Virus record (IMG/VR): IMGVR_UViG_3300025666_000022
Coordinates: 1-37,317 of that record
Source: a virus
Length of the DNA stretch: 37,317 nt
Strand: one strand, 5' to 3'
A model generated the notes under the pieces. The model saw nothing but the letters and a program-made list of their open reading frames with translations, was not told where the DNA came from and did not search any database. Below, one piece after another: positions 14,757-31,696 of this stretch; within the stretch, counting starts at the first letter, position 1, and each line of letters starts with the position of its first letter. The position numbers and the translations under genes were made by a program.

Positions 14757-16370
14757 ATGGCGTATTTTAATCATGCATTTGCAAAATGCTTTATTGCCAC
14801 AAAAGCTGATCAAGTTGAAGCAGGGGTTCCTGGTGATGCAGGCGGAGCAGCTGGAGTGACAAACGGAATGGTTACTACTGTAGGAATGCACGTAAGTAAC
14901 TTAAAAAGTACAGCAGCATCCGAGGGATGGTTGTTAGGACCTGGTGTAACAGGTGTATTCGGAGTAAAAGGAGCAAACAAGGATTTGACTCTTAACATTG
15001 GTGAAACTCCAGATTGTTGTCCTTTTTATCTTGCTAGTTCATCTATCAAGATTAATGACAAGCAAGGACCTTTTCACGGAGGCTACCAAGTATCTAACAA
15101 GTCTAAGGAAATTAATCCTAAGTATATCCGTAAAGGATGGGTACAAACGGCTAATCCAGCTTCGGCAGCGGTTATGCAATTAGGTGGAACACCAGATAAT
15201 GTTGGTGGGCAAGTGCTTACTGTAGGATCATTAGTTGGCGGTACTGGTTATCCAGCAAGTCTTGCTGGAGTTGAAACAGCTACTCTTATATTAGGTAGTG
15301 GTTCAGGAGCAACTGTAGATATTACAACAACTGCTGGTGGAGTTATAACACTTGCTGTACTTAATAATCCAGGTATTGGATATGCTGTAGATGATGTACT
15401 TGTAATTCAAGGTGGTAATGATGATGGAACTATTACGGTAGTAACAGCAGAATTGCGTAATGCAAATTGTAATAAAGAGTTTATTTGTGAAGAGACTTAT
15501 TATTTACGTCTTGAGGTTAAAGGATCAGATGCTTTGCGTTTTGCTAACCATAACTTATATCAGAATTTAGGTGCATACACAGGATGTTGTGATGATCCTC
15601 TTGTACCAACTGCGGTAGATCCAAAGATTGTATACTTAGATTGGGCTCAGCAAATTGCAGGTCTTCCAGGTTCTACTCAAGGTAGTGATCAAGGAAATCC
15701 TTATTTCAAAGATTTCATTCGTCCAATAGTTGTTGTTGATGGTATATCATATGCAAAAGATGAAGCGGCAGCTCTTGAGTCTGGTCTTCCAGCAGCAAAT
15801 ATTTGGGCTAATATCCCAGCGGCAGTTGCATCAACAGCAGGTTTAATTTTGCTTGGTGCTTATGTAGAAACTGAATTTGGTGATTGTACATTCCAGCCAT
15901 CTGATTATTACTCAGTTGAGCCTCTTAAGCTTTATGCTTCTGAAGTTGATTTGAATGGTGATCCGTGTGCGTTTGAAGGTTTATGTGTAATTCATACATG
16001 TTTAGGAAATCAAGCAAACGGTCTTGGTGAAAGTGTTGCACGTGATGTGATTCTTCATGAAGCTTACTTACAGAATTTCATGTCAACTGACTTGAGAATC
16101 CGTGAAATTACTCAAGGAACAAACATTTGGGATGTGATTGATAGAGCTGCACGTTATGACAGAGTATTCTTGTTGCATTCAGTGCCAAGATTTAACAACC
16201 CATCAGGTACGTTTGATAACGATCAGTACTTATTGGACGTTATTACTCCAGATCATACAACTTTCTCTACCTACTTAACAGCAGTATTTGAAACTTGTAA
16301 TGTAGATTGTGAAGAAGTTGAGATTTATACAACAATACCGTGTACTTATAGTTTGCCAGTAGAACTGTAA
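14757..16370 (+). CDS. Abundant virion protein with an inserted Gly-rich beta module
   Basis: 537 aa. It has its own promoter and terminator, which suggests high, separate expression of a major virion component (decoration, auxiliary capsid, or major tail protein). The body is beta-rich with scattered Cys pairs (DCCPFYLASS, TGCCDDP, CNVDCEEVEIYTTIPC) and helices near 425-480. Residues about 141-236 form a separable module (GGTGYPASLAGVETATLILG, GSGSGATVDI, NNPGIGYAVDDVLVIQGG) of the GSGATA type seen in many phage virion proteins. The flanking sequence looks continuous without it. I do not recognise the parent fold. No signal peptide or collagen-like region is present. Confidence 0.55.
   Translation: MAYFNHAFAKCFIATKADQVEAGVPGDAGGAAGVTNGMVTTVGMHVSNLKSTAASEGWLLGPGVTGVFGVKGANKDLTLNIGETPDCCPFYLASSSIKINDKQGPFHGGYQVSNKSKEINPKYIRKGWVQTANPASAAVMQLGGTPDNVGGQVLTVGSLVGGTGYPASLAGVETATLILGSGSGATVDITTTAGGVITLAVLNNPGIGYAVDDVLVIQGGNDDGTITVVTAELRNANCNKEFICEETYYLRLEVKGSDALRFANHNLYQNLGAYTGCCDDPLVPTAVDPKIVYLDWAQQIAGLPGSTQGSDQGNPYFKDFIRPIVVVDGISYAKDEAAALESGLPAANIWANIPAAVASTAGLILLGAYVETEFGDCTFQPSDYYSVEPLKLYASEVDLNGDPCAFEGLCVIHTCLGNQANGLGESVARDVILHEAYLQNFMSTDLRIREITQGTNIWDVIDRAARYDRVFLLHSVPRFNNPSGTFDNDQYLLDVITPDHTTFSTYLTAVFETCNVDCEEVEIYTTIPCTYSLPVEL
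15177..15464 (+). other. Inserted GSGATA-type domain inside the 537-aa gene
   Basis: This covers codons about 141-236. The encoded pattern is an initial GGTGYP, a strand pair with ATLILGSGSGATVDIT, then GGVITLAVLNNPGIGYAVDD. Related but diverged patterns lie in the 481-aa gene (about residues 291-420) and the 305-aa gene (about 95-170). Boundaries are estimated from composition. Confidence 0.5.
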
Positions 16371-20528: not shown

Positions 20529-21119
20529 ATGGCAAAAAACTGCGGACATGACGATATACCTTGCGGATGCAAGGACACAGGGCTTTTAACTCCACCACCA
20601 TGTGGTCCAGGAGTTGATTGCCCTGACGGGACAGAATGTACTGAAACATTTGACGCAACATGTACTTACTATACCGGAGAGGATATTGTTTGTAATGATG
20701 TTGTTATAGTTACTGCAGGTAACAATGTAACGGAAATGATTCAAAACATTACAGATCATTTCTGTGCAACGCAAGGAGTTATAGATAATATTCTTTGTGG
20801 CGAAGAAGTTGTAGTATCAGCTGGCGTAACTTTTGATCAAGCTTTTATAGAACTTTCAGCATATTTTTGTGAAGCAATTGCTAATATTCCTGCAGGCCCT
20901 CCAGGCCCACCAGGTGATACAGGTGCTCAAGGAGATCCAGGTACTCCAGGCACCAATGGTTTAAGTGGTAGAGGTATTGCAGTATTTACACAAGCATTGC
21001 AACCAAATCAAACAGATTTTAATAATCAATATGGAACTATAGAAGGGTTTGGTGTCAATGGAATACCTGGAAGTGCTGTAATCAAGCCCGGTGATCTTTG
21101 GATAGAAGACTGCCCTTAA
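20529..21119 (+). CDS. Collagen-like fibre protein
   Basis: 196 aa. The N-terminus is Cys-rich (CGHDDIPCGCKDTG; CGPGVDCPDGTECTETF). Two copies of a GEDIVCNDVV / CGEEVVVSAGV strand-helix module follow (about 45-79 and 90-114), each ending in FC. Residues 123-149 are nine Gly-X-Y triplets (GPPGPPGDTGAQGDPG then GTPGTNG), a collagen-like triple helix that would force trimer formation. The last 45 residues resemble a small C-terminal cap. Such proteins normally build thin fibres on virions. It is translated 11 bases after the previous stop and 9 before the next start, so it is part of one cassette. Confidence 0.65.
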   Translation: MAKNCGHDDIPCGCKDTGLLTPPPCGPGVDCPDGTECTETFDATCTYYTGEDIVCNDVVIVTAGNNVTEMIQNITDHFCATQGVIDNILCGEEVVVSAGVTFDQAFIELSAYFCEAIANIPAGPPGPPGDTGAQGDPGTPGTNGLSGRGIAVFTQALQPNQTDFNNQYGTIEGFGVNGIPGSAVIKPGDLWIEDCP

Positions 21120-21128
21120 ACTAAAAAG

Positions 21129-22574
21129 ATGGGAGACTATAAAGTATTTGATGGTACTAATTGGGTTAATCCATGTACTTGTAATGTACATGTTATGCAG
21201 TCTAATGATGTTTGGAAGCTACTTGAACCTAGGACTTGTCCAACTCGTTATTGGGATGGTACTGAATGGTGTTTAATTACATGCGGTACACAAATTAGTG
21301 AAAAGACTGAAATTAACATATGGTTTGATTCATCAGGTTCAATGAATCAAACTTTGCCAGCATTAGAAAATATGCGCGATGAATTGTTAAAAGATTGTCT
21401 TTTGCCTTTATATAATAATGACTTGTTGCTCTATAATGAAAGAGTCAAAATTATTTCTAGCTGGACAGAAAGATCCATTAAACAATTAGGTACTGTAAGA
21501 AATTATAATGAGACTATACTGCAAAATCCTGCTTGGGTTAATAGATCTATAGATCTTACAGTAGATCTAGTTATAAATTTAGTTTATAGTGACGAAGGCC
21601 AAGGAAACGCAGACTATTGGAAATATGATTGTCTTCCTGATAAGTGTAATCCTGCTCAGTTATTTCCTGTACCAACTACGCAACAAGCCGGTTATTTAAA
21701 CGATGTAGCATACACAAGAGGTACAGTAGAAGCAGCAATTATTGATCCTAATCCTTATGAGATTAAAGGTGCTATGTTTAGAGTTGCTACATCTGATCCC
21801 GCTCTTATTAGACAAAGAGAGCTTGTTGAATTATTATTTAATGATAATGCATTATATTTTCCACCAACTAATCTTTCTGATTATTTAACAACAAACTTTC
21901 AATATAGGCTTGATACTTTGAAAGGGCAGTCTGTTAATTCACAATCGCCTTTTATAAGTTTTCAAATATATTATTTAGCAAATAATATTGATTGGAATGT
22001 AGGCACTTATTTAAATACACCTGTTACAACTGTAGGTATTGGTTCAGGTGCAGGAATGCTTTTAAATATTGAAGTACTTCAACATACTGGTATAGGTACT
22101 GCTTCTGTTGTTGCTCCCGGTATAGGTACATATACACCTAATGCTACATTAAACGGAAGTTTAAATTTTGGTAATGGTGCAAATACAGGAAATAATGAAA
22201 GTGTTATATTTACTACAGATTCTTTAGGTAATCCAACTGCTATTACAGGTTTTAATACAGTAGGTGATGGATTCATTGTTGGTGAGAATTGGTCTTTATA
22301 TCATTCAAGTAATCCCTCACAAATTAATCAAGCTATTGTTACTATAGATACAGTAGTTATATATAATCCTTTTACTATTACAGGTATAGCAAGTTATGGT
22401 AATGAACTATATTTAAATACAGATACTTTAGAAGTACAACCACCAATAACAGCAGCACCAGGTGTTCAAGTTGTTAATATCCAAGTTGGTGATGGTACAG
22501 GTTTTCCTAGTTATTATCTAGCTGAAGTTGTTTCATCATTAAACCAATTAGGGCTTGCTATTAATTGCTCATAA
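21129..22574 (+). CDS. von Willebrand A-domain fibre protein with a MIDAS motif
   Basis: 481 aa. Residues 4-52 hold two short WDGT-type strands (VFDGTNWVNPC, YWDGTEWCLITC) often found in phage fibres. Residues about 60-280 match a vWFA fold: INIWFDSSGSMNQTL gives DxSxS at D67, S69 and S71, and VINLVYSDEG (D155) fits the later metal-side acidic strand. In other proteins the MIDAS binds a divalent metal and a protein or glycan ligand. From about 291 to 420 a Gly-rich beta module (TVGIGSGAGMLLNI; TGFNTVGDGFIVGENW) seems inserted before a final strand-helix (QVVNIQVGDGTGFPSYYLAE). A receptor-binding or adhesion role is inferred, not shown. Confidence 0.65.
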   Translation: MGDYKVFDGTNWVNPCTCNVHVMQSNDVWKLLEPRTCPTRYWDGTEWCLITCGTQISEKTEINIWFDSSGSMNQTLPALENMRDELLKDCLLPLYNNDLLLYNERVKIISSWTERSIKQLGTVRNYNETILQNPAWVNRSIDLTVDLVINLVYSDEGQGNADYWKYDCLPDKCNPAQLFPVPTTQQAGYLNDVAYTRGTVEAAIIDPNPYEIKGAMFRVATSDPALIRQRELVELLFNDNALYFPPTNLSDYLTTNFQYRLDTLKGQSVNSQSPFISFQIYYLANNIDWNVGTYLNTPVTTVGIGSGAGMLLNIEVLQHTGIGTASVVAPGIGTYTPNATLNGSLNFGNGANTGNNESVIFTTDSLGNPTAITGFNTVGDGFIVGENWSLYHSSNPSQINQAIVTIDTVVIYNPFTITGIASYGNELYLNTDTLEVQPPITAAPGVQVVNIQVGDGTGFPSYYLAEVVSSLNQLGLAINCS

Positions 22575-22603: not shown

Positions 22604-23521
22604 ATGGATTTAGAAATTTCATGGACAGCAAACTGGATAGGAAACTACAATGTATGCTATAGAGAAGCAGGTACATTAAACTATACGTGTTCAATAGAAT
22701 TTGTAGCGGCATTAGGTCCTGCAACAAAAACAATTACAGTGCCTAATAATTATTGTGATTTGGTAGTTTATGAAGGTTATATTCTTGCAGAGTGTCAAGG
22801 CAATGCTGATCCAGCAGAAGGTACACAATTTACAATACAAATAGTACAAAAAGATGATCCTTGTAATCCTTATAATGTACATTGTGATAATGCGCCTATA
22901 GCATCATTAATACCAAGTGCACCTGGTATAGATTATGTTACTGGAGAAGATGTTTTAGCTGATGGTATTCCTGTAGGAACTATAGTTGCTCCTACAGGTT
23001 TTATTACTGACGTAATAATAACTGATTCAGTAACAACATTTACAACACCTCCTGTAGTGACAATTAGTACAACAAGTGGTACAGGTGGTGCTATTCAATT
23101 AACTTTAGCTGATTGCCAACCAATACTTCAAGGATGTGATGGTACTAATGATCAAGGTGTACCTGTAAGTTCTATAACTCCTTCTATACCGATAGGTTCT
23201 GACTTTTACTTATGTGCTACAGCTGAGCCTGAACCAACACCTGCTGCTCAATATACAGTTACAGCTTTAGCAGGGACACCTTCTTATGAAACATGTCATT
23301 GCGAGCAATGTATAGAAGTAACAGTATCAAATCCAACAGGAACTAATTTATCTATTTGGTATACAACATATGATTCAGGACTAGGTTCAATAGTTTTATG
23401 GAAAGAGGTTATTGTTGCTGGTGCATCAAATCAATTATTAGCAAATCAAGCTATATCAGGTTCTGTGACAGCTCAGGTTGGTCTTGTAGTTGTTATAGAA
23501 AATTGTCCTGCAATAGCATAG
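22604..23521 (+). CDS. Cys-containing beta-rich fibre or decoration protein
   Basis: 305 aa. Residues about 1-85 form an FN3-like domain (ISWTANWIGNYNVCYREAG; TKTITVPNNYCDLVVYEGY). Residues about 95-170 resemble a worn copy of the Gly-rich module (APIASLIPSAPGIDYVTGED; TFTTPPVVTISTTSGTGGAI). The rest (about 171-305) is a further beta domain with CHCEQC and a final IVLWKEVIVAGASNQLLANQ strand pair, like a small fibre head. It is the last gene of the fibre transcript and is followed by paired hairpins. No catalytic motif is seen. It could be a decoration protein or an adhesin tip. Confidence 0.55.
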   Translation: MDLEISWTANWIGNYNVCYREAGTLNYTCSIEFVAALGPATKTITVPNNYCDLVVYEGYILAECQGNADPAEGTQFTIQIVQKDDPCNPYNVHCDNAPIASLIPSAPGIDYVTGEDVLADGIPVGTIVAPTGFITDVIITDSVTTFTTPPVVTISTTSGTGGAIQLTLADCQPILQGCDGTNDQGVPVSSITPSIPIGSDFYLCATAEPEPTPAAQYTVTALAGTPSYETCHCEQCIEVTVSNPTGTNLSIWYTTYDSGLGSIVLWKEVIVAGASNQLLANQAISGSVTAQVGLVVVIENCPAIA

Positions 23522-23654: not shown

Positions 23655-24434
23655 ATGGAAAAAAAGAGACTTTTTTATGATATAGAAACTTCTTTCTGTA
23701 AAGGACATTTCTGGAGACCTGGTTATGGTCAAAACATTTTACCTCATCAAATAACAGATTATGCAAAAATAATATCTATCCATTGGAAATGGGAGGGAAA
23801 AGATAAAGTGCATAATCTTGATTGGGGATTAAAAAAACAATGTGATAAAAAAATGTTAGAAATTTTTGTTAAAGAAATGGAAAAAGCTGACGAAATAATT
23901 ACTCACAATGGTAAACGTTTTGACACTCCTTGGATAAGAACAAGATGTGTCAAACATGGTATACCAATTTCACATGTTTATAATGAAATGGATACTTATA
24001 AATGGTGTAAAAAATATCTTAACTTGCCAAGTAACTCTTTAGCTGAAGCTTGTAAATATTTTAATTTAGAAGCTAAGAAAGACGCAGGTGGTATAAAGAC
24101 TTGGATTGATGTAATATACAAAAAATCTAAAGAATCTTTAAAACATTTACTTTATTATGGTGATGGTGATATAATTAGCCTAGAGGCTTTATTTCATAAA
24201 CTTAGACCTTATACTAATCCAAATATGCATTACAGTGTTTTAAAAGGAGGCAATAAGTTTGAATGTCCTGAGTGTTCAGGATTAGGTAAATGGCATAAAA
24301 CATATACCACAAGGGCAGGTACTATCCAGCATTACATGTTATGTAGAGATAAAAAATGCGGCACACGATACAAAATCAATAATAAAACCTATCTAGACTA
24401 TTTTCAATATAAGCTGCTTAATAATATAAAATAG
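23655..24434 (+). CDS. DEDDy 3'-5' exonuclease with C-terminal zinc ribbon
   Basis: 259 aa. The RNase H-like exonuclease motifs are complete: FYDIETS (D9, E11), ITHNGKRFDTPWI (D90), and YYGDGDIISLEALF (Y168, D172), the DEDDy arrangement of the YprB/RNase_H_2 type. A C-terminal zinc ribbon follows: CPEC (204, 207) and C-x4-C (230, 235). It should remove nucleotides from a 3' end of DNA or RNA using two metal ions; the ribbon may guide substrate. It is unusual among tail genes. It follows a terminator directly, has no clear promoter of its own, and ends with TAG before the promoter at 24467. Expression could rely on readthrough. Confidence 0.75.
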   Translation: MEKKRLFYDIETSFCKGHFWRPGYGQNILPHQITDYAKIISIHWKWEGKDKVHNLDWGLKKQCDKKMLEIFVKEMEKADEIITHNGKRFDTPWIRTRCVKHGIPISHVYNEMDTYKWCKKYLNLPSNSLAEACKYFNLEAKKDAGGIKTWIDVIYKKSKESLKHLLYYGDGDIISLEALFHKLRPYTNPNMHYSVLKGGNKFECPECSGLGKWHKTYTTRAGTIQHYMLCRDKKCGTRYKINNKTYLDYFQYKLLNNIK

Positions 24435-25096: not shown

Positions 25097-25774
25097 ATGG
25101 GTACAATAGGTGATGCTACATCAAGAGTAAGAAATGTTATTAAAGGTGTGAAAGAAGATGCTTTTATTACTGATCGTTTTATTTATAAGCTGATTTGGAA
25201 GTATGCAAAGACTTTAATCAAGCGTGAAGACACTATGAATGAAATATATAAGTACACAAGTCTTTTTTCTGAAATACCTTGTGTAGAGCTTATAGATGTA
25301 GACAAAGTAGATGCTTGTTGTACAGGAATTAAAACTTCTTGTACAATAAAACGTACTAAAGAAAGAGTACCTAAGTTATTAGAAACATCAGATGGTCCTA
25401 TAATTAGAGAAGCTTCTTCTTTAGATTACTCTGTTTCTTTGACTAGAACTTATCCTAGTATTTACACTAATATGACAAGGACTACAAGTTTTAAATATAA
25501 TAAATCAAAATACTATTGGTACTTAGATGGTTATATTTATATTCCTGATGTTGAGTGGGAATCTATGAGACTACAAGGAATATTTGAAGATGATACTACT
25601 GAGTTTATTTGTAATGATAATCCAGATGATGATTGTCGTTCTGAACAAGATAGAAATTTACCTATACCTGAACATTTGTTTTCTGAAATAGAACAGTTCG
25701 TGCTTAAAGAAATATTAACTGCTGGGCAAATACCTTCAGACGGAGCCGATGACAGCCAAAATATTATGAGATAA
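25097..25774 (+). CDS. Tail connector / ring protein candidate
   Basis: 225 aa. The N-terminal helix pair (ATSRVRNVIKGVKEDAFITD then RFIYKLIWKYAKTLIKRE) leads to a beta domain with aromatic strands (KYYWYLDGYIYIPDVEWESM), ending in an acidic linker (DDTTEFICNDNPDDDCRSEQ) and a helix (FSEIEQFVLKEILTAGQIP). This helix, strand-domain, helix build resembles small tail-tubular or ring proteins of crAss-like and P22-like phages. It is coupled to the next gene by a TAATG junction. The exact rank in the tail stack cannot be told from sequence. Confidence 0.5.
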   Translation: MGTIGDATSRVRNVIKGVKEDAFITDRFIYKLIWKYAKTLIKREDTMNEIYKYTSLFSEIPCVELIDVDKVDACCTGIKTSCTIKRTKERVPKLLETSDGPIIREASSLDYSVSLTRTYPSIYTNMTRTTSFKYNKSKYYWYLDGYIYIPDVEWESMRLQGIFEDDTTEFICNDNPDDDCRSEQDRNLPIPEHLFSEIEQFVLKEILTAGQIPSDGADDSQNIMR

Positions 25775-26787
25775 TGAGTTATAATTATACACTAGATTAT
25801 AGAACTTTTGATGAACTTGTTGCAGATGCTGCAAGTGATTTTAAAAAATATCAACTTGAAGGTATTATTGATAGCCAAGATCTAATAAAGGTTGCAAAGA
25901 GAGTAAACTATGATTTAGGTTTACGTATTTTTCAAACTAGAGAAGTTGTTCTTGAGGTAGAAAAGAATAAGGTACGCCTGCCTAATGACTTCTATGTATT
26001 AAACTTTGCGTTTGTGTGTAATAAGTATAGTATTAAGCAATATTTACCACAAGGTACTCATATTGAAGAAAGACTTATTGGTCAAGCTGCACCAGAGTAC
26101 CAACAAGCCCCACCAGAAGACGTTGACTTCTGTACTGATATAATTGTTCCAGATGTACCTTGCGATCCATGTGATCCATGCGCACAGTGTAATGAGCCAA
26201 CTTGTGGTGACACTTGTAATGCTTGTTGTGCTAAACCTGATTCGTGTACTTTAAGTTGTAATGGTGAAGTAAATCAAATTGTACAAGTTCTTAATTCTGA
26301 AATAAGACATTATGAATCAATGCTACCACTTACAATTGCTAAAAATGCTAAAGCTGTAGATCAAGACTGTCCTAACTTGCGTTGGAAAAGCCCATTTTCA
26401 GCTTACATTAAAGATGGTTGGTTGTATACAAGTTTTGAAACAGGTAAAGTTTATTTAAATTATCAAGGTATGATGGAAGACTCTGATGGTAATTTACTTG
26501 TTCCAGAGCATCCCTTACTTAATGAGTATTATGAATACGCATTAAAACAAAGAATATTAGAGAACCTGATCATGAATGATGAGGTAATTAATCCGCAAAA
26601 AATACAGTTAATTGAACAAAGGTTTAGAGTAGCACGTAATGCTGCTTTGAGTTTAGTTAATACACCAAACTTTGCAGAACTCAAAAGTTTCTACCAAGCA
26701 AACAGAAAAGCATTTTATAATAAGTATTACAGTATGTTTAGTAGCTACGGTAATGGAAATAGATTTAATGGAAGGAACCGGTATTAA
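25774..26787 (+). CDS. Tail connector / ring protein with a Cys-cluster insertion
   Basis: 337 aa. The flanks match a tail-tubular-A/P22 gp4-like connector pattern: DYRTFDELVADAASDFKKYQ, a helix with VAKRVNYDLGLRIFQTREVV, then VRLPNDFYVLNFAFVC. After residue 115 an insertion holds 11 Cys between 120 and 162 (CDPCDPCAQCNEPTCG then DTCNACCAKPD), before a strand-helix end (RWKSPFSAYIKDGWLYTSF; NEYYEYALKQRILENLI). The cluster could be a zinc knot or disulfide lattice and looks unlike the rest of the protein. The 3' end is 10 bases from the giant tail gene. Confidence 0.55.
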   Translation: MSYNYTLDYRTFDELVADAASDFKKYQLEGIIDSQDLIKVAKRVNYDLGLRIFQTREVVLEVEKNKVRLPNDFYVLNFAFVCNKYSIKQYLPQGTHIEERLIGQAAPEYQQAPPEDVDFCTDIIVPDVPCDPCDPCAQCNEPTCGDTCNACCAKPDSCTLSCNGEVNQIVQVLNSEIRHYESMLPLTIAKNAKAVDQDCPNLRWKSPFSAYIKDGWLYTSFETGKVYLNYQGMMEDSDGNLLVPEHPLLNEYYEYALKQRILENLIMNDEVINPQKIQLIEQRFRVARNAALSLVNTPNFAELKSFYQANRKAFYNKYYSMFSSYGNGNRFNGRNRY

Positions 26788-26797
26788 GCGTTAGACT

Positions 26798-29700
26798 ATG
26801 GCAATGAAAAAGCAAAATACAAGTACTGCTGGACTACATACCTTTCAAAAAGGACTAGGAGAAGATATAAATGGAATGGCTAAGGATGGAAGTTCTTGGA
26901 CTCAAGCACGGAATGCAGTAAACAATACTACAGTAGGTGATGTTGCTGAACTAAGTAATGAAGAATCTAATTACTTATGTGCTACGGCGCCATATACAAT
27001 TATAGGTTTTATACATTTAGAAGCTGACAAGTGGGCTGTGTTTTCTACGGATGATAGTAACAGCGAGATTGGTTTATTTGAAAGAGATTCATGCACTTAT
27101 GATACGGTTGCTAATGACCCTTGTTTAAACTTTAATAAAGACTATTTAATCATTGGAGTATCAAGAACTAACTTTGATTGTGATAATCAAGTCTATTGGT
27201 CTGATTCTTATAATCCTGACCGTACTATGTCTATACAGAATCCGCCTTGGATACAAGACTGTGTAGATGATAATGGTGACCTTCCTGGAGGATGTATCAT
27301 ATGTACTGATACGGATCAGCTTGACTGTGAAAAATTAAGAATAGCAGCCTTAGTAAAGAATATATGTTTAAGTACAAGTGTTGGAACAAGCAGTGGTGAA
27401 CTACTTAATGGGCAGTACTATGTTGTTGGTGCTTACGTGATAAATGGACAGAAAATTTTAGACTACTCAGCACCATCTAACGTACAGGGACTTTTTACCC
27501 ATCAGAATCTTGCGTCTTCTTTAGAGGTAACTGTTGATTTTGCTGATGAGGAATTTGATGAATTTGAATTAATTCTAATAAGCTTCAGCAACTTTCAAAC
27601 AGTTGGCAAGCGTGTAGGTATCTACAGTACACGACAAAAGGTTATTACTATTGACGCAATCATTGAAACATGGCCAGATGTAGATATAGGTAATATTGCA
27701 TTAAGAAATCCAATATTTGATAAATCTGATGGTATATACAAGAATGGAAAATACATGATGCGTATTGGTCCTACTAATAAGTTTGACTTTAATTATCAAC
27801 CTTTAGCTAATCAGATTGAGACAAGCTGGGTATCTATTGAATATCCTGCAGACTATTACCGTAAAGGTGGTACTAAGACTAGTTATATGCGAGATGAAGT
27901 ATATTCTTTCTTTGTAAGGTTTGTGTATAATACTGGTGACAAGTCTGCTTCATATCATATACCTGGAAGAGCTACTAACGCAAATGATGCAGGTCAAGTT
28001 ATAGGTGATGATTCTGCTGTTGATATTGCAGATGGCTTAATACCATATACATGGCGTGTATATAACACAGCGTCTATTAACCCCTCTTTTCCTTTAAGTG
28101 TTTTGCCAGACGGTGGAACAATACTTGCTGGAGGAAGTATGGGTTATTGGGAATCATCTGAGTATTATGATGATGACACCCCTGAAATATGGAATGCTAA
28201 TTTACCTGGTCAACCTCAATTTGATTTATGTGGTACACCTATACGTCATCATAGGTTTCCTGAAAATACAATAAGAGTTGCACCTTATACAGGCAGTACA
28301 ATTACTAATCATTATGATCCTGTAGCTGGAAATACTATTAGAATAATGTCTGTTCAGTTTGATAATATTCAACCACCTATTGACAATGATGGAAACGTCA
28401 TTCAAAACATTGTTGGTTATGAAATATTAAGAGGAACAAGAGAAGGTAACAAAACTGTTTTAGCAAAAGGTTTAATAAACAATGGTCGTGAATATGATAC
28501 AGCTTTAAATAATACTCCTAGACAAGGCATTTATGCAAACTACCCGTTTAATCCTTTGGGACCTGATAAGTTTTTAAATGCTCAACATACGAATTTTGTT
28601 GCTGATTCAGAACCTACTTATTTTACAATTCCTTTTGAACCTTATACAGGAATTAGAAAAGATCTTTTTACGTTCCATTCACCAGAAACTAGTTTTAGAG
28701 ATCCTTATTTATCTGCTAAAGAAATTAAAATTTATGGTGAAGCTAACGGTACTGTTAATGGTTACTTTGATTATCCTGATAAGCATCCTAAGCATAAGTT
28801 TATTACTGATGTTGCATTTGCTGTGTCTGCTATTGCAAGTATAGGGTATGCTGTTGTTAAAATGCAAGGTAAAAAAACTACTAATTATAAACCTACTACT
28901 AAGATTCATTTAGGTGGTAATTTATTAGGACAAGGGGCAGGTACAATATCAGGTCCTGCTAATAGTGGTTTAGGTAATACAGCTATAGGAATAATGAATA
29001 ATGCAATAGGTTTAGGCTCACTTGCTACGTTTGGTTCACTTGCGGCAATTGCAACAACATTAATAGGAGGAGAGACAAATAATCTACAAAATATTACAAC
29101 TAGTCAGGCATCTGAATTAGCTAGATTAGCACCTGGTACAATTAGTGGTTATTATAATTGGAGTAGAGAGGTTTCAGAAAATGAATCAATGCCTGATATT
29201 TTTAGAGTAATACAAGCGGTTCCTACTTTTTTATCTTATATGGGTCAAGGAACAGATATTTTTATTGAATTAATTAGAGCTTTTTCTCCTTGGCGACAAT
29301 ATGCTATGCAATATATGTCTCATGGTTTTTATAGCAGATTTAGAGGACCTACGATTGGTAATACAAAAAGAGGTTTAGGTGAACAAGGTTATATAGATCC
29401 TACGCTTCAAGACTTTGGTTTAAATTATAGAATAAATAATATTTACCGTTCAAGAACTGTTGCAATTGAAACTACTGGACTAGTTGCTAATCCACTTACT
29501 GTTGACAATACTCAACAAACATTTAGTGATGCTACCAATTTTCCAAATGGTCCTGATTGGCCTAATTTATCTACTGATGATAAGGTGCATCAAAAGTCAT
29601 TTAATACAACAGCTAGCTCACACTATGTTGCATTAAAGCAACGCTTGTTAGCACAATATGGACAAATAGCAAGTATTATTCAAGTGCCTGTTTCAACATG

Positions 29701-31696
29701 TATGGTTGATATTGCTGAGACTGGAACAGGTCCTTTGTTTAATGGTGATGTTTATATTGGTCGTTTTACTGAAAAGAATACTATGTTCTTTTTTTATGAT
29801 TGGTTATATGATTTACCTGACGGAGCTGAGTTTGATTATCGCTTATACAAGATGATAACTCATCCTAGATTTTGGATGGATACTGAATCTTTTGATTTGC
29901 AAGAATTTTTAGGCAGTCTTGGTGATTCTGTTACCTTTCCTGCTATTGATTTTGATCAAATTGTTGTTCCCAGTGGAAAAGCAGCTTTTGATAGAAAGTC
30001 AACAATTACTGGCATCTTTAATATAAAGAATGCTTTCATGTATCTATTTAATTCTGGTGTACGTGACTTCTTTGTAGAATCTGAAATAAATATTGATTAT
30101 AGAGATTGGGGTGATAATGATTCACAAAGACATTATGATCCGTATAGATATTCTGATTTAACTGCAATATTTAATAGTAATTTAATTAAAGCTGGTAATT
30201 TCTTTAAGTACGATTATAGTTTAAGTCAATCTAAATTGTTTAATAATTTTATAGCTTGGGGTAACACTCAAGCAAGAAGTTATGATCCAACTGTGGCTGA
30301 AGACTGTTATGTTTATAGACCTAAGCGTATTACTTATTCCTTACCACAAGATCTTGAGAATCAAAAAGACTACTGGAGAGTGTTTTTACCTTTCAATTAT
30401 AAAGACTTTAATAGCAAGGTAACTGCTATACGTCCAATAGGTAAGAATGGTGCAATTATGCTTTTTGAGAATGAGAGCCCTGTTCAATTTGCTGGAGTAG
30501 ATCAACTTGTTACAGATAGCGGAACAAAGGTTACAATAGGTGATGGAGGATTATTTTCACAACCACTACAGAATTTGGCCAATGTAGATGAGCCTATTGA
30601 GTATGGTTCATGTCAAAATAGATTGTCTATTGTAAACACACCATTAGGGATGTTTTACATGAGTCAGAACCAGGGTAAAATTATGCAAGTTGCAAATGGC
30701 TTGATGGCTATTTCAGATGCAAATATGAAGTGGTGGTTTGCTACATACTTACCATACCGATTAACAAATGATTTTCCTGATTTTGAATTACAAGATAATC
30801 CAGTTGTTGGTATAGGATGTCAAAGTATTTATGACAATAAGAATCAAATAGTATATTTTTCTAAAAAAGATTACCAATTAAGAAAAGATATACGAGATAA
30901 AGTTGAATATGTTAGCGGTAGAATGTTTATAGTAAATAACATTTTGCCAATTCAATTAGGTGACCCTAGATATTTTGAAGATGCTTCATGGACTGTAAGT
31001 TATGATCCAAAAGTAAAAGGATTTATTTCTTATCATGATTGGCACCCTGATCTTACTATACCCGGAAAGAAAACATTTATGTCATCTAAAGATGATGGTA
31101 TATGGATTCATAATGATAATTGTGCAAGCTATTGTAACTTTTATGGAACAGACTATCCATTTGAAGTAGAGTTTTCTGTACCAACAAATGTACAGGTGAA
31201 TACGTTACGTAGTTTAGAATATTACATGGAAGTATTTAAGTATGACGAAAATTGTTATGATAGGTTTCATGTGTTAGACTTCAACTTTGATGAAGCTGTT
31301 GTTTATAACTCTGAGCAGGTTTCAGGTTTGCTTAATTTAAACCTAATGCCAAAGAATAATGCTCCGGAGATATTAAACTATCCTCAGATTAATTTTAACA
31401 ATATTGATATTCTTTTTTCTAAAGAAGAACAGAAGTATAGGATTAATCAATTTTGGGACATTACTGATAATAGAGGTGAGTTTGATCCAACGGCTGAGCG
31501 TATGATATTTAATACAGCAGCTAATGGATATGTTAGAACATTAAATGCTAATAATTTAAATTATGCTAAATTTGAACTAGAACATAAAAAGTTTAGACAT
31601 TATCAGAATACAGTTCTTTTAAGAAGAAAAGTGTCAGGTAATAGAAACATGGTAGTTTCTACAACGGTTAATAAAAATCTTTTAAGTCCTAGATAA
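26798..31696 (+). CDS. Giant tail protein, nozzle / stabilisation (muzzle-like) candidate
   Basis: 1632 aa. Its place after two connector genes parallels T7 gp11-gp12 and P22 gp4-gp10 order, where the larger protein forms the nozzle or stabilising hub. Much of it is beta-rich with repeated Trp/Tyr strands (EADKWAVFSTDDSNSEIGLF; FVRFVYNTGDKSASYHIPGR), fitting a propeller or multi-beta fold. Residues about 671-757 are hydrophobic and Gly-rich with two membrane-like stretches (TDVAFAVSAIASIGYAVV; GSLATFGSLAAIATTLIGG). The C-terminal part resumes soluble beta structure (SWTVSYDPKVKGFISYHDWH). No tape-measure repeats are visible. It overlaps the next start by one base (TAATG). Confidence 0.55.
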   Translation: MAMKKQNTSTAGLHTFQKGLGEDINGMAKDGSSWTQARNAVNNTTVGDVAELSNEESNYLCATAPYTIIGFIHLEADKWAVFSTDDSNSEIGLFERDSCTYDTVANDPCLNFNKDYLIIGVSRTNFDCDNQVYWSDSYNPDRTMSIQNPPWIQDCVDDNGDLPGGCIICTDTDQLDCEKLRIAALVKNICLSTSVGTSSGELLNGQYYVVGAYVINGQKILDYSAPSNVQGLFTHQNLASSLEVTVDFADEEFDEFELILISFSNFQTVGKRVGIYSTRQKVITIDAIIETWPDVDIGNIALRNPIFDKSDGIYKNGKYMMRIGPTNKFDFNYQPLANQIETSWVSIEYPADYYRKGGTKTSYMRDEVYSFFVRFVYNTGDKSASYHIPGRATNANDAGQVIGDDSAVDIADGLIPYTWRVYNTASINPSFPLSVLPDGGTILAGGSMGYWESSEYYDDDTPEIWNANLPGQPQFDLCGTPIRHHRFPENTIRVAPYTGSTITNHYDPVAGNTIRIMSVQFDNIQPPIDNDGNVIQNIVGYEILRGTREGNKTVLAKGLINNGREYDTALNNTPRQGIYANYPFNPLGPDKFLNAQHTNFVADSEPTYFTIPFEPYTGIRKDLFTFHSPETSFRDPYLSAKEIKIYGEANGTVNGYFDYPDKHPKHKFITDVAFAVSAIASIGYAVVKMQGKKTTNYKPTTKIHLGGNLLGQGAGTISGPANSGLGNTAIGIMNNAIGLGSLATFGSLAAIATTLIGGETNNLQNITTSQASELARLAPGTISGYYNWSREVSENESMPDIFRVIQAVPTFLSYMGQGTDIFIELIRAFSPWRQYAMQYMSHGFYSRFRGPTIGNTKRGLGEQGYIDPTLQDFGLNYRINNIYRSRTVAIETTGLVANPLTVDNTQQTFSDATNFPNGPDWPNLSTDDKVHQKSFNTTASSHYVALKQRLLAQYGQIASIIQVPVSTCMVDIAETGTGPLFNGDVYIGRFTEKNTMFFFYDWLYDLPDGAEFDYRLYKMITHPRFWMDTESFDLQEFLGSLGDSVTFPAIDFDQIVVPSGKAAFDRKSTITGIFNIKNAFMYLFNSGVRDFFVESEINIDYRDWGDNDSQRHYDPYRYSDLTAIFNSNLIKAGNFFKYDYSLSQSKLFNNFIAWGNTQARSYDPTVAEDCYVYRPKRITYSLPQDLENQKDYWRVFLPFNYKDFNSKVTAIRPIGKNGAIMLFENESPVQFAGVDQLVTDSGTKVTIGDGGLFSQPLQNLANVDEPIEYGSCQNRLSIVNTPLGMFYMSQNQGKIMQVANGLMAISDANMKWWFATYLPYRLTNDFPDFELQDNPVVGIGCQSIYDNKNQIVYFSKKDYQLRKDIRDKVEYVSGRMFIVNNILPIQLGDPRYFEDASWTVSYDPKVKGFISYHDWHPDLTIPGKKTFMSSKDDGIWIHNDNCASYCNFYGTDYPFEVEFSVPTNVQVNTLRSLEYYMEVFKYDENCYDRFHVLDFNFDEAVVYNSEQVSGLLNLNLMPKNNAPEILNYPQINFNNIDILFSKEEQKYRINQFWDITDNRGEFDPTAERMIFNTAANGYVRTLNANNLNYAKFELEHKKFRHYQNTVLLRRKVSGNRNMVVSTTVNKNLLSPR

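Follow-up and report, generated by a model that had tools for sequence, protein, structure and literature searches.

A vWA-like domain with a predicted metal site in a variable tail-region protein of an environmental crAss-like phage

Gene Neighbourhood of the ORF

The window analysed here, i.e., the whole 37,317 bases of a virus record, is an environmental crAss-like phage fragment. Pfam models of Crassvirales proteins were found to match the major capsid (PF23898; 10829–12466), ring 2 (PF25702; 25097–25774), ring 1 (PF24228; 25774–26787), and muzzle (PF25731; 26798–31696) genes, and the portal showed 23–33% identity to portals of crAss-like phages. The ORF at 21129–22574, the subject of this study, lies among these genes of the Crassvirales tail module, and the gene order from portal to muzzle was shown to be kept in IMG/VR relatives, the variable part of the syntenic loci extending from the 16446 gene to ring 2 (Table 1). 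The initial annotation had placed the ORF in a fibre cassette, which fits the position of the block, with the Crassvirus capsid gene on one side and ring 2, ring 1, and the muzzle on the other. The collagen-like neighbour that it named is real, yet short and under the Pfam cut-off; its "FN3-like" label for the downstream gene found no support in Pfam, and part of that gene product resembles a baseplate-hub PHROG.

Short matches to baseplate/connector PHROGs were detected in the proteins encoded at 14757–16370 (aa 146–230) and 22604–23521 (aa 98–170). Both matched phrog_460 weakly, which suggests that they have one small beta module in common. An RNase H-like/PolB-type exonuclease gene (23655–24434) follows the fibre cassette and precedes the 24507 gene; no matching gene was found at this position in the syntenic relatives whose layout was inspected. 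The closest isolate was Leptolyngbya phage Lbo-JY46 (accession no. PP438436; portal 33%, muzzle 25%), which is recorded from a cyanobacterium, an unusual source for crAss-like phages; possibly, a Bacteroidota contaminant was the true host.

Table 1. Features of the ORF and of its neighbourhood in the 37,317-base window.
Feature	Position	Strand	Evidence or conservation
Collagen-like tail gene, 196 aa, upstream, conserved neighbour	20529..21119	+	Pfam (below cut-off), synteny
ORF, 481 aa: putative docking module and vWA-like domain with internal insert	21129..22574	+	Family HMM match
N-terminal putative docking module, aa 1–55	21129..21293	+	Common to crAss-like proteins with differing C-terminal parts
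vWA-like core, aa 56–271, beta1-alpha1-beta2-beta4-alpha-beta5-alpha-beta6	21294..21941	+	HMM aa 54–271; AF2
DSSGSM, aa 67–72; DxSxS = D67, S69, S71	21327..21344	+	Invariant 48/48; single pattern match
E114, acidic, after strand 2; putative stand-in for the MIDAS loop-2 Thr	21468..21470	+	48/48
D155-E156, end of core strand 147–154, third MIDAS position	21591..21596	+	D155 46/48, E156 48/48
D192, invariant	21702..21704	+	48/48
Gly-rich insert, 186 residues, about aa 272–457, beta6-alpha7 loop	21942..22499	+	HMM; pLDDT below 50
Last helix of the vWA-like domain, aa 458–481 (PSYYLAEVVSSLNQLGL)	22500..22571	+	HMM aa 450–480; AF2
Variable fibre-cassette gene, 305 aa, downstream	22604..23521	+	PHROG match, synteny
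Tail ring 2, ring 1, and muzzle genes, marking the neighbourhood as a crAss-like tail	25097..31696	+	PF25702, PF24228, PF25731

Organization of the ORF and Conservation of the Motif

The N-terminal module contains two DGTxW-type motifs (aa 8–12 and 43–47) and four cysteines (positions 16, 18, 37, and 52), all of which recur in crAss-like proteins bearing other C-terminal parts, and it showed 44–47% identity to L107, L153, and members of the L226–L230 group. The vWA-like domain that follows is present in two pieces, aa 56–271 and 458–481. The family HMM, built from a 12-member alignment in which ORF aa 53–262 had been included and aa 450–480 left out, matched the ORF at aa 54–271 (E 2e-61) and separately at aa 450–480. 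In the homologues, strand 6 is directly joined to the last helix (YYxxLIxxxNNLGF), and about 186 residues intervene at this point in the ORF. The Gly-rich module that had been proposed to be inserted near the last strand-helix is thereby delimited, by the split HMM match and by homologues without the gap. Smaller additions in the same beta6-alpha7 loop were seen in distant members (L241–L249), and no relative of the insert was found among about 3370 fetched ORFs.

The residues reported earlier, DSSGSM at aa 67–72 and LVYSDEG at aa 151–157, were exact, as were the ORF coordinates. Eight positions (D67, S69, G70, S71, M72, E114, E156, and D192) were invariant in all 48 homologues; position 155 was Asp in 46 of them and Asn in the other two, and E114 was followed by Arg in 45, with a variable position thereafter. 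A degenerate DxSGSM pattern occurred once in the window compared to 0.01 expected in shuffles, and conservation of D67, S69, G70, S71, and M72 in every one of the 48 homologues shows that the DxSxS motif is not a chance occurrence. This motif lies where strand 1 ends, and D155, directly after strand 147–154, occupies the position at which a MIDAS has its loop-3 Asp following strand 4, both as in vWA domains. A MIDAS loop-2 Thr was not found in the 48 homologues, which instead have the invariant Glu114 after strand 2. In integrin beta I domains, a Glu has the role of the loop-2 Thr.

Searches for Related Sequences

Direct searches with the ORF gave no match in isolate phages, viral contigs, or the 29 syntenic records, and no significant match in Pfam, PHROGs, or PDB sequences. 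The family was opened with a codon pattern for FDSSGSMN, which retrieved 29 viral loci, about 20 of them encoding a domain that could be aligned with the ORF; a 12-member alignment then retrieved 52 viral and 17 bacterial loci, and the family as found here comprises about 65 sequences. The 12 aligned members did not match any Pfam (including VWA) or PHROG model, the one member searched against the isolate-phage collection (L195) had no match there, and no NCBIfam match above the cut-off was obtained for seven full proteins, bacterial and muzzle-type carriers included. PF13519 had no match in the window, PDB profile searches with the family gave chance hits only, and profile comparison did not connect the family with vWA apart from the motif itself (HHalign probability 22% and 3%). 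Judged from these searches, the vWA-like family is undescribed and outside the coverage of the Pfam, PHROGs, and NCBIfam models.

Structure Model

AlphaFold2 run with a 59-row alignment predicted a core of alternating strands and helices (aa 55–130, 141–150, 181–262, and 458–477) with pLDDT mostly about 90, including 91–94 for helix 460–473, a weaker loop at aa 131–180, and values below 50 for the insert; the single-sequence prediction was unusable (pLDDT 32). The antiparallel beta3 was left unassigned by DSSP in this model, in which aa 131–140 are of low confidence. In VIA-align, the model was matched to vWA domains of ITIH1 (Z 8.7–8.8), integrin beta2 (8.4), beta3 (8.0), integrin alpha1 (7.8), and vWF A3 (7.4), and to SGNH esterases including PatB at values close to these (7.0–8.1). 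These Z values are middling, and therefore the fold alone does not decide between vWA and SGNH. Foldseek found nothing in the PDB within an E threshold of 0.001, and the closest BFVD model was one without a name (A0A516LFG0_2; E 5e-10, 25% identity).

When a gap-free alignment from the first aligned residue to D67 is assumed, the aligned starts 58–289 (6fpy), 53–920 (1fe8), and 57–109 (3fcs) put D67 on residues 298, 934, and 119, the starting offset differing by two residues in some other rows (e.g., 6fpz and 1mf7). Residue 298 of ITIH1 is the position mutated in entry 6fpz (D298A), and residues 934 of vWF-A3 and 119 of integrin beta3 are DxSxS/MIDAS aspartates. In the model, the register of D67 with these three residues points to a MIDAS.

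The initial annotation of a von Willebrand A domain with a MIDAS motif is thus partly supported. With vWA/integrin I domains (PF00092, PF13519) the ORF shares a Rossmann-like core, DxSxS after strand 1, an Asp after a later strand, and a C-terminal helix, and the structure prediction that it had called for returned vWA and integrin domains among the best matches, with SGNH folds nearly as good. It differs from them in that its family has no Pfam hit, an invariant Glu replaces the loop-2 Thr, and beta3 was not seen. Motif, conservation, and fold class make the domain vWA-like; because the loop-2 Thr is missing and the antiparallel beta3 unseen, it is not called a proven member of the vWA family.

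Orthologues and Distribution of the Domain

Five related contigs (L226–L230) carry an orthologue at the corresponding position, with cores 37–41% identical, and in the tree the ORF and the four distinct orthologues (L226, L227, L229, and L230) formed one clade (support 100/99) on a long branch. Their modules are combined differently: L153 consists of the anchor and a 300-residue module, L226, L227, L228, and L230 of the anchor, a middle module, and the vWA-like domain, and L229 (7845–8645, 267 aa) of the anchor and the vWA-like domain, an organization to which the ORF adds its insert. The middle module of L226 showed 37% identity to the module of L153.

A complete variable part was available for 48 loci, 42 of which had been fetched by portal or ring 2 and the other six (L218 and L226–L230) because they carry the vWA-like domain. 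None of the 42 contained the domain (0/42), and since these cassettes are unbiased in this respect, the domain is not needed for infection in general.

In most family members, the domain was located at the extreme C-terminus. It ends a crAss_MUZ muzzle protein (L213; L210, L214, and L217 have a similar N-terminus) and proteins of 1750–1830 aa (L241–L249), and in Chryseobacterium it was found in a PKD protein beside Baseplate_J (L262; L261, L263, and L265 were alike). It was also present in proteins with a lipoprotein-type SCS N-terminus from Gillisia, Salegentibacter, and Salinimicrobium, and the two Gillisia neighbours that were scanned look like ordinary chromosomal genes. Flavobacterial lipoprotein-type proteins ending in the domain were L252–L254, L257–L260, L267, and L268. 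In the tree, the lipoproteins, muzzle ends, and Baseplate_J-linked proteins were joined in another clade (100/97). That phage tips, baseplate-linked injection-type systems, and Bacteroidota surface lipoproteins draw on the same pool of vWA-like domains, so that attachment could copy or engage domain-domain contacts of the host, is a speculative idea to which we give little probability.

Comparison with Known Systems

The nearest published parallel is gp164 of Bacillus thuringiensis phage 0305phi8-36, where a vWA is encoded in a gene of the baseplate/fibre region and is swapped for another domain in relatives (PMC2147016); it differs in phage lineage and in that the vWA sits centrally in gp164. 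The tail fibres of eCIS, which are phage-tail-derived systems, contain VWA and PKD among their receptor-binding domains (PMC12923769), and in Chryseobacterium the family described here likewise follows PKD in proteins adjacent to Baseplate_J; however, the eCIS VWA is found as Pfam VWA, whereas the present family is invisible to Pfam. Phage crAss001 belongs to the same order, Crassvirales, and has homologous ring and muzzle proteins, but the accessible sections of its description do not mention a vWA domain for the tail hubs, fibres, or muzzle (PMC10172136). In the literature searched, no paper joining crAss-like phages with von Willebrand was found.

Tandem canonical VWA domains were observed in a giant muzzle protein of other crAss-like contigs (L142:14634–16667; L162:1–1701, minus strand; L163:157–2166; L171:157–2166). 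Like the ORF domain, they are vWA with DxSxS in a crAss-like tail protein, but they have a Pfam VWA match (tested on L142), are located inside the muzzle, and carry an invariant Thr as well as a DG motif. Apart from the DxSxS motif, profiles did not connect them with the ORF family; they imply that vWA entered crAss-like tails more than once, or that the two diverged beyond profile detection. A gene pair of MoxR-type AAA+ and vWA was also seen in crAss-like contigs (L165–L169 and L172; the AAA+ neighbour was read in L172 only), and these MoxR-associated vWA proteins were set aside as a different system.

Alternative Explanations

The similarity of the model to SGNH esterases and PatB (Z 7.0–8.1), close to that to vWA, together with the resemblance of DSS after strand 1 to a GDS block, could indicate an SGNH/GDSL-type esterase that, in the manner of depolymerase tips, removes acetyl groups from surface glycans and uses S68 or S69 as its nucleophile. 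The catalytic Ser of block I and the Asp-x-x-His of block V that define SGNH hydrolases were not found: position 68 is occupied by S, N, D, or A across the 48 rows, which also lack any conserved His, and this rules out SGNH catalysis. S69 and S71 are both invariant, as a MIDAS requires. An esterase is therefore considered very improbable.

A purely structural domain, serving oligomerisation or locking of tail parts instead of host binding, is unlikely, though it deserves more weight. vWA domains often mediate protein-protein contacts within complexes, and the neighbours of the ORF are tail structural genes; in the crassvirus atlas, the crassvirus tail is described as a tightly interlocked assembly (PMC10172136). 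Several observations speak against such a role: none of the 42 unbiased cassettes has the gene, the domain stands at the C-terminus and recurs on unrelated proteins, host lipoproteins among them, and the copy in the ORF is on a long branch and has a large insert. The same accessory distribution (0/42 cassettes) would suit a domain that binds material other than the host (particles, extracellular matrix, or cell aggregates) and holds virions near hosts without binding an infection receptor, and the atlas raises the possibility that head fibres attach to molecules of the host or of the gut surface (PMC10172136). The location near the ring and muzzle genes, however, favours the tail, and binding of non-host material seems quite improbable.

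Proposed Function

The family, its conservation and fold class, the insertion, the orthologues, and the module shuffling are directly supported by the comparisons above. The ORF product is probably an accessory subunit of a crAss-like tail appendage with a metal-dependent adhesion tip, for which we infer virion location, metal, and ligand. Because aa 1–55 are common to tail-block proteins of related phages with differing C-terminal parts, this module may attach to some conserved tail or fibre component, and the C-terminal vWA-like domain would then be the exposed tip. A divalent cation would be held by D67, S69, and S71, with E114 and D155/E156 as candidates to complete the site, and could take an acidic group of a host-surface protein or another ligand, resulting in metal-dependent attachment. 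From vWA topology, the 186-residue insert would leave the beta6-alpha7 loop on the face of the metal site, and its probable effect in the lineage of the ORF is to remodel or mask the binding surface.

The ORF thus provides a concrete candidate host-attachment tip for crAss-like phages, with a predicted metal site. L229 is a compact natural version fit for expression, and the natural module swaps offer a comparison series. The new domain family spans environmental phages and bacterial genomes, with a hint of a domain pool common to host lipoproteins and phage tips.
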